A stretch of DNA of 64,000 nt from Pectobacterium colocasium (GTDB lineage Bacteria > Pseudomonadota > Gammaproteobacteria > Enterobacterales > Enterobacteriaceae), in assembly GCF_020181655.1 (NCBI RefSeq), contig NZ_CP084032.1:3286001-3350000 (forward strand). The letters run 5' to 3'. The position numbers and the translations under genes were made by a program. Of this stretch, positions 42,254 to 48,992 are shown one piece after another. The notes beneath the pieces are model-generated. The model was not told where the DNA came from. It was given only the letters and a program-made list of their open reading frames with translations, and ran no database searches. The first letter of the stretch is position 1. Each line of letters starts with the position of its first letter.

Positions 42254-42671
42254 TTAAAGTATATTTTGCAGTAATTGAGCCTTCATACTGGCTTCAAAGG
42301 GAATAATATCAGCGGTAGCAATATTCAACTTCTGGAATGGATCCTGACTAAGGCGTTCTTCTAACGATTCAACACTGTCGCATTTTGCCAGTATGACTCC
42401 ACCGTTTCGAGGGATTCTCCTTCCTGACGCGAGAAACACGCCATCTGAGTTAATGCCGATCGTTTAAGGATCGAGATACCGGGGGCTACCACGGTGCAAG
42501 GTATCCCTGCGGGAACCTCATCACCGTGTTTCCCCCTAAATCCATGTTTAAGTGAACAACATTACCATCTGAGTAACCTTTTTTAAGCCACTCAACATGA
42601 GCAGGAATTTGCGAATCAACCGCTTCCAAGGGTTTTATATACGTTAAAACCACTACATAAATGATACCCAT
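42254..42671 (-). pseudogene. YciI-family protein gene split by a small mobile repeat
   Basis: YciI-like proteins are small dimeric alpha/beta-barrel-like proteins. The first part starts at ATG 42671 (MGIIYVVVLTYIKPLEAVDS) after AAGGA and runs to KKGYSDG. The second part continues VFLASGRRIPRNGGVILAKC to FEASMKAQLLQNIL at 42254. Between them lie a 114-bp repeat (42451-42564) and one of the two copies of CCATCTGAGT. Removing the repeat and one copy leaves 294 bases, exactly 97 codons and a stop, and joins YSDG to VFLASG. The interruption is therefore recent. Confidence 0.9.
42451..42564. mobile_element. MITE-like repeat, copy 1 (inside the yciI-like gene)
   Basis: A 114-bp non-coding element from TAATGCCGATCGTTTAAGGA to GTTTAAGTGAACAACATTA. 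Direct repeats CCATCTGAGT flank it on both sides (42441-42450 and 42565-42574), a 10-bp target duplication. Imperfect ends TAATG.../...ATTA are inverted. The middle folds: GGGGG (42481-42485) with CCCCC (42532-42536), CACGGTG (42490-42496) with CACCGTG (42522-42528), and TCCC-TGC-GGGA in the centre. It has no coding capacity and needs a transposase in trans. Confidence 0.88.
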
Positions 42672-48879: not shown

Positions 48880-48992
48880 TAATGCCGATCGTTTAAGCAT
48901 TGAGATACACGGGGCGACCACAGGGGTGAGACCTCCCTGCGGGAACATCCCCCTGTGTTTCCCCTAACAACGGGCTTAAGTCATCAATATTA
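48880..48992. mobile_element. MITE-like repeat, copy 2 (between outG and outH)
   Basis: A 113-bp relative of the element at 42451: same ends TAATGCCGATCGTTTAAGCA and CTTAAGTCATCAATATTA, same centre TCCCTGCGGGA. The flanks GGCATCTCGCC (48869-48879) and GGCATACCGCC (48993-49003) are an 11-bp duplication with two changes, so this insertion is older. The stem CACAGGGG (48919-48926) pairs with CCCCTGTG (48950-48957), and GGGG (48911-48914) with CCCC (48961-48964). Confidence 0.88.

Follow-up and report, generated by a model that had tools for sequence, protein, structure and literature searches.

The window analysed here is a 64,000-nucleotide stretch of the Pectobacterium colocasium genome. At one locus, a YciI-family gene encoded on the minus strand, with its start codon at 42671 and its stop codon at 42254-42256, is split by a 114-bp element situated between two perfect 10-bp copies of one sequence, and the coordinates given for this arrangement in the first-pass annotation were confirmed. 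A second copy of the element lies further along in the window. The features, by window position, are as follows.

42254..42440, minus strand: 3' part of the split yciI-type gene (VFLASG...)
42441..42450, no strand assigned: target-site duplication, left copy, CCATCTGAGT
42451..42564, plus strand: MITE of 114 bp without a transposase gene, recognised from its sequence, its matches in the same genome and the flanking duplications
42451..42468, plus strand: left terminal inverted repeat TAATGCCGATCGTTTAAG, equal to the left end of the partner insertion sequence (IS)
42470..42539, plus strand: internal hairpin core (match to model R1)
42547..42564, minus strand: right terminal inverted repeat, agreeing with the right end of the partner IS at 14 of 18 bases
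42565..42574, no strand assigned: target-site duplication, right copy, CCATCTGAGT
42575..42671, minus strand: 5' part of the split yciI-type gene (...YSDG, with the duplicated bases)
48880..48992, plus strand: second, more diverged MITE copy, with core CACAGGGG/CCCCCTGTG and an eroded 11-bp duplication (9/11)

The element begins with TAATG and ends with ATTA. Its 5' end reads TAATGCCGATCGTTTAAG and the reverse complement of its 3' end starts TAATGTTGTTCACTTAAA, so the termini form imperfect inverted repeats. Joining the flanks by script without the element and one repeat left 294 bases, equivalent to 97 codons plus stop, and the view that this was a clean insertion was favoured by two relatives in which the gene is uninterrupted. 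One is encoded on a Serratia plasmid (NZ_CP053380.1); the protein has the same length as the rejoined gene product, is annotated as YciI family and matches Pfam YCII, and a protein search matched both halves of the window's gene to it, with 78% and 82% identity. The other is in a genome of the genus (G024), where the gene product is 75% identical to the Serratia protein, so that the split gene is not common to all close relatives. The Serratia gene aligned with a score of 288 to the empty site versus 177 to the interrupted sequence, and the G024 gene with a score of 153 versus 92. Both genes are therefore empty orthologous sites of the MITE insertion, and empty sites were also present at terminators in the genus, as described below. 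Searches of plasmids, phages and E. coli genomes for a near relative of the element returned none except the Serratia yciI flank.

The same genome contained at least 41 matches to the 114-bp element, a lower bound since 40 of 68 candidates were scored. Of the 41 loci fetched, 20 (L001-L017, L023, L026 and L040) were flanked by duplications of 10 bp or longer (10-14 bp) carrying no more than one mismatch; the 41 include one place twice (L041 shows the same copy as L021). The duplication length had been guessed as 10-11 bp; the measured range was wider. Copies L003-L006 were mutually identical yet lay at different sites with different duplications, as did L007, L009, L010 and L011. These identical copies at different sites, the clean duplications and the many copies bear out the earlier proposal of a MITE-type mobile element, and the absence of a transposase gene, the length of 114 bp, the imperfect 18-bp inverted ends and duplications of the IS length class (10-14 bp for the MITE, 10-13 bp for the IS) all accord with a MITE. 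Some copies lacked the ends and duplications. Matches were found in 25 of 25 genus genomes, our own included, and among named genomes the exact core pattern occurred in 17 stretches, all 17 from Pectobacterium, in line with the genus named in the earlier proposal. A covariance model of the core gave 60 rows in our genome, two of which overlap on opposite strands. In three species (L091, L154 and L158, in G017, G003 and G014, respectively), the MITE had the same flanks and the duplication AGAGATACCCGT; this is an old insertion retained through speciation. The second window copy sits at a GGGC/GCCC palindrome and belongs to a second subfamily, whose members include L033, L034, L036, L184, L187 and L189. 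A longer variant (L019, L029, L031, L097, L101 and L174) has a further palindromic segment, either GCATTTTAAATGCCACTTGTGGCAGCCCGTCAGGGC or a near match, lying between the core and the right end.

A full IS sharing the MITE ends had been suggested as something to look for, and one was found. The genome contained 26 matches to DDE_Tnp_1, and MITE-like ends occurred around eight of them: a 1413-bp IS is present in seven full copies, and the eighth is a 773-bp deletion derivative. Between the reference copy and each of the six other full copies, 4 to 7 positions differ. All eight were flanked by duplications of 10-13 bp, one of them with one mismatch, in keeping with the duplications of about one helix turn that are typical of the IS4 family. 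The 440-aa transposase contains the Pfam domains Nterm_IS4 (PF13006) and DDE_Tnp_1 (PF01609), scored 286.9 bits against the NCBIfam IS4-family model NF033592 (cut-off 115), and by eye carries the Y(2)R(3)E(6)K signature, as described in the available part of the IS4 review (PMC2266710), in the form YAHRWEIELGYREAK. The IS resembles E. coli IS4 and its subgroup in its ends (TAATGCCGATC...; the left end of E. coli IS4 is TAATGCCGATCAGTTAAG), domains, signature and duplication length, and its transposase is 52% identical to E. coli InsG. It is nevertheless a separate IS. As judged by eye, the IS4 of E. coli K-12 is not in an obvious terminator, whereas seven of the eight copies here lie in terminator-like stem-loops.

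The first 18 bases of the left end are common to the IS and the MITE, with one full IS copy differing at one base, and for the yciI copy the identity extends to 21 bases. At the right end, the yciI copy agrees with the IS at 14 of 18 bases and the consensus of our MITE copies at 16 of 18. A comparison of the MITE interior with the IS reported no exact match over 10 bases. Since only the ends match, the MITE has the recognition ends of the IS but a different interior, and an origin by internal deletion of the IS was rejected. The shared ends and the duplication length suggest that the MITE is moved in trans by the IS transposase; the 2 to 4 differences among the 18 bases of the right ends, and the dissimilar interior, speak against this. 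Among the 15 candidates scored per genome, no match to the partner IS was found in 12 of 25 genus genomes, whereas the MITE was present in all 25, so that either other ISs moved many of the copies or many of them are old. The IS itself has two further inverted repeats. Its right end (L042:2425-2463 and other copies) forms the hairpin AATGCCGGTCAC-CTTAA-GTGACCGGCATT adjoining AAAAAA, which on the opposite strand reads as a hairpin followed by T6 and is possibly an inward-facing terminator that would block transcription from outside. Directly before the transposase start codon, at L042:1097-1133, is the inverted repeat AAAAAAGGTTCATG...CATGGACCTTTTTTT, possibly a terminator or a block of the start site.

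Mobile elements can use transcription terminators, as group IIC introns do and Tn7 does near glmS. Insertion sites were scored by folding windows spanning the midpoint of the duplication. A site passed as terminator-like when, on either strand, it had a stem-loop of -10 kcal/mol or better whose last G-C pair was followed within eight bases by four or more T. The null was drawn from 244 kb of our genome and consisted of 6000 positions lying in no ORF of at least 100 aa, of which 4.9% passed (intergenic), and 6000 random positions, of which 5.1% passed (all positions). By contrast, 7 of 8 IS-type sites passed, the deletion derivative included (binomial p 5e-9 versus the intergenic null), as did 10 of 18 of our MITE sites (L001-L018, out of the 41 loci; p 3e-9). 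Among relatives, 14 of 31 MITE sites passed (p 6e-11, the sites being partly non-independent); the 31 were obtained from 77 loci, reduced to 62 rows, by removing duplication strings that were unclear, repeated or present in our own genome. L068 and L141 appear to be one site, as do L086 and L152; L145 and L147 correspond to our sites L009 and L018, and L148 lies in a terminator that holds an IS in our genome (L046); with orthologous sites counted once, 10 of 26 passed. Three related ISs of the genus gave 13 of 15 resolved sites, and 11 of 13 when shared sites were counted once (L191 and L205 are the same site, and L207 lies in the L009 terminator); two further copies lacked a resolved duplication. 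The folding rule was adopted after the result of a first rule was known. That rule, stricter and cruder, required a rigid symmetric stem and missed stems extending into the A and T tracts; it passed 5 of 8 IS-type and 7 of 18 MITE sites against a background of 1.0%. Below threshold under the folding rule were 8 of 18 of our MITE sites, 17 of 31 sites in relatives and 1 of 8 IS-type sites.

The IS sites resemble textbook terminators, for example AAGG[GGCTTCGGCC]CCTTTTTT, in which the inner brackets enclose the duplicated bases. The duplicated bases span the loop and inner stem of the predicted terminators, and at many sites an A-tract is also present on the side opposite the T-run. The yciI site itself scored 0 for want of a qualifying stem-loop, despite a T6 run at a distance of four bases; this copy would be an off-target exception. 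We infer that the transposase recognises terminators, rather than palindromes generally, and that differential survival does not account for the pattern.

The alternative closest to this reading is that the transposase recognises G+C-rich palindromes, or bends flanked by A and T, in general, terminators being simply the commonest such sites. There is precedent in ISRm22, an IS4-family member which the part of its report available describes at the symmetry axis of palindromes (PMC1525189); the targets there are REP repeats, whereas those described here are unrelated stem-loops beside many different genes. In addition, L094 and the second window copy are at palindromes with a weak T-run. On the other hand, the passing sites have at least four T in eight bases by rule, many with an opposite A-tract, and although the null was held to the same rule, stem and T-run were scored jointly. 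We consider this alternative possible, at something short of even odds.

Comparison of orthologous places across the genus bears on a second alternative, namely that insertion is random and that terminators only look preferred because selection removes insertions in genes and promoters. The place of the MITE copy L013 was located in 25 of 25 genus genomes, with an uninterrupted stem-loop in 21, three of which have a variant loop. The terminator is occupied by the MITE in our genome (G000) and by an IS4-type IS in G004, starting one base further, and in two of the 25 genomes the stem is followed by other DNA. In L265 (G001) and L276 (G012), the DNA GAGGTTGCTGACA...GTCCGTAGAGCGGGAGCAACGG follows a variant of the L013-type stem-loop. 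A stem-loop held by the MITE, by an IS and by other DNA is possibly a terminator hot spot. Two further orthologous terminators, which are likewise hot spots, hold either the MITE or an IS4-type IS depending on the species (L009/L145/L207, with L145 in G021 and L207 in G004; L046/L148, with L148 in G021). The L011 terminator was recognised intact in 4 of 25 genus genomes, using a strict pattern and with the region differing in other genomes. In favour of selection, a crude ORF call places 10 of our 18 MITE copies between convergent ORFs. The pass rate of the intergenic null, however, is only 4.9%, compared with 7 of 8 and 10 of 18, the duplicated bases are centred on the loop, and different elements have taken the same terminators, in one case with starts one base apart. 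Random landing followed by selection is thus improbable.

Several short repeats and known systems were compared with the MITE. ERIC, NEMIS/YPAL and RU-3 are, like the element, short, intergenic, structured, MITE-like and enterobacterial, and the available part of one report describes TA duplications for enterobacterial repeats, RU-3 as confined to E. coli, Salmonella and Shigella, and ERIC (RU-1) as especially abundant in the intergenic regions of Erwinia carotovora (PMC2759123). The 10-14 bp duplications of the element differ from the TA duplications of ERIC-type MITEs, and we rejected its identity as RU-3, YPAL or ERIC on the host range of RU-3 and the TA duplications as reported there; the distinction is drawn from published descriptions. 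That an ERIC-type or REP-type element is moved by another enzyme, as the similar size, the conserved hairpin and the abundance of ERIC in Erwinia carotovora might suggest, is very unlikely given these duplications and ends that are those of an IS4-family IS. A fixed, immobile ancestral repeat with coincidental flanking repeats is scarcely credible: copies at the same site in different species (L091, L154 and L158) and copies without ends or duplications would suit it, but identical copies at different sites with clean duplications do not, and the empty sites contradict it.

MITEAba12, mostly 113 bp, is similar in size, in having the ends of a resident IS and duplications of that IS class, and in disrupting a gene, according to the part of its description available, which also reports 9-bp AT-rich duplications without a sequence trend (PMC6382973); the MITE described here differs in its IS4-family partner and in its favoured targets, terminator-like stem-loops. 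The accessible part of the IS4 review mentions some subgroup members with spectacular apparent insertion specificity in target arms, and its main text, to the same extent, contains no word beginning with "terminator" (PMC2266710). The element was likewise absent from the portions available of PMC10969869, PMC11092175, PMC2267715, PMC2229807 and PMC2759123. A literature search for this element or for terminator-targeting ISs found none, although a name may exist in subscription papers, ISfinder or TnPedia. MITEs, the IS4 subgroup and insertion at REP palindromes by the IS4-family ISRm22 are therefore already known, whereas targeting of terminator loops was not found described.

The internal hairpin was examined in 57 distinct copies, in which a 15-pair structure left 97.0% of cells paired. 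Changes on both sides of a pair occurred at 8 of 15 pairs and in 25 cells, whereas shuffles averaged 2.1 such pairs and 4.3 cells and slid structures never exceeded 5 of either; the structure was derived from the same alignment, which is somewhat in its favour, and the copies are related, so the cells are not independent events. One of five covariation measures, further pair types, was attained by a slid control (18 versus 17 observed). The yciI copy folded with a z of -3.5 as RNA and -2.8 as DNA with the repeats included. The hairpin thus seems to be under structural constraint. The core model matched in 17 of 148 genera of the family, our own included. The best core copy of G138 lacks IS4-like ends, and by eye the ends in G150 and G118 look related. 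Since the core occurs in genera without IS4-like ends, the hairpin seems older than these particular ends; either it was captured by the MITE, or the solitary cores are eroded MITEs. Tandem cores spaced about 85-300 bp apart and without obvious IS4-like ends were observed in L253 (G146), L249 (G166), L260 (G038) and L254 (G072). An Rfam scan of the window gave only a tRNA at gathering score, and nothing in Rfam matched L001, L253 or L260 up to E 0.5. When plasmids and E. coli genomes were searched with cores taken from two other genera, the sole match covered 36 flank bases in a Salmonella record (H2). Our best guess is that the hairpin, as RNA, would fold the transcript end and affect its stability or termination. 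Folding of occupied sites suggested that pairing of the outer terminator arms could persist with the MITE between them. A role for the MITE fold in holding the split arms together is poorly supported: when the element at each of 10 sites was compared, on both strands, with 40 base-shuffled versions, none of these reached the element in 11 of 20 cases, but the margins were tiny, the gain was at most 1.0 expected pair and shuffled elements did nearly as well.

Taken together, the 114-bp MITE was likely inserted by the transposase of the 1413-bp IS4-family IS acting in trans, an enzyme that would prefer terminator-like stem-loops, with the yciI copy off-target, a reading to which we assign a probability of about 85%. 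An IS4-type transposase would act on the MITE ends by cut-and-paste and would prefer sites composed of an A-tract, a G+C-rich palindrome and a T-tract. Insertions would then be mostly intergenic and largely harmless, and such mild effects on genes would allow a high MITE copy number. A broader reading, which we hold with no more conviction than doubt, is that a Pectobacterium clade of the IS4 subgroup lands in terminators, cutting the stem-loop in two at its centre, and that the MITE exploits this safe harbour throughout the genus; the MITE may be a chimera of IS4-type ends with an older and more widespread hairpin repeat found across the Enterobacteriaceae, rewiring transcript 3' ends genome-wide.

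The conserved hairpin marks a structured repeat in many enterobacterial genera without a match in the Rfam scans made. With the partner transposase and natural empty sites at hand, terminator targeting is directly testable. If it is true, DNA transposons would have in terminators a defined class of target, with an effect as a safe harbour like that of attTn7, except that attTn7 is a single site and terminators would be used across the genome. This would explain how dozens of MITE copies coexist with few disrupted genes, and IS and MITE activity would alter transcript 3' ends as well as read-through from one gene to its neighbour, the two often being convergent.
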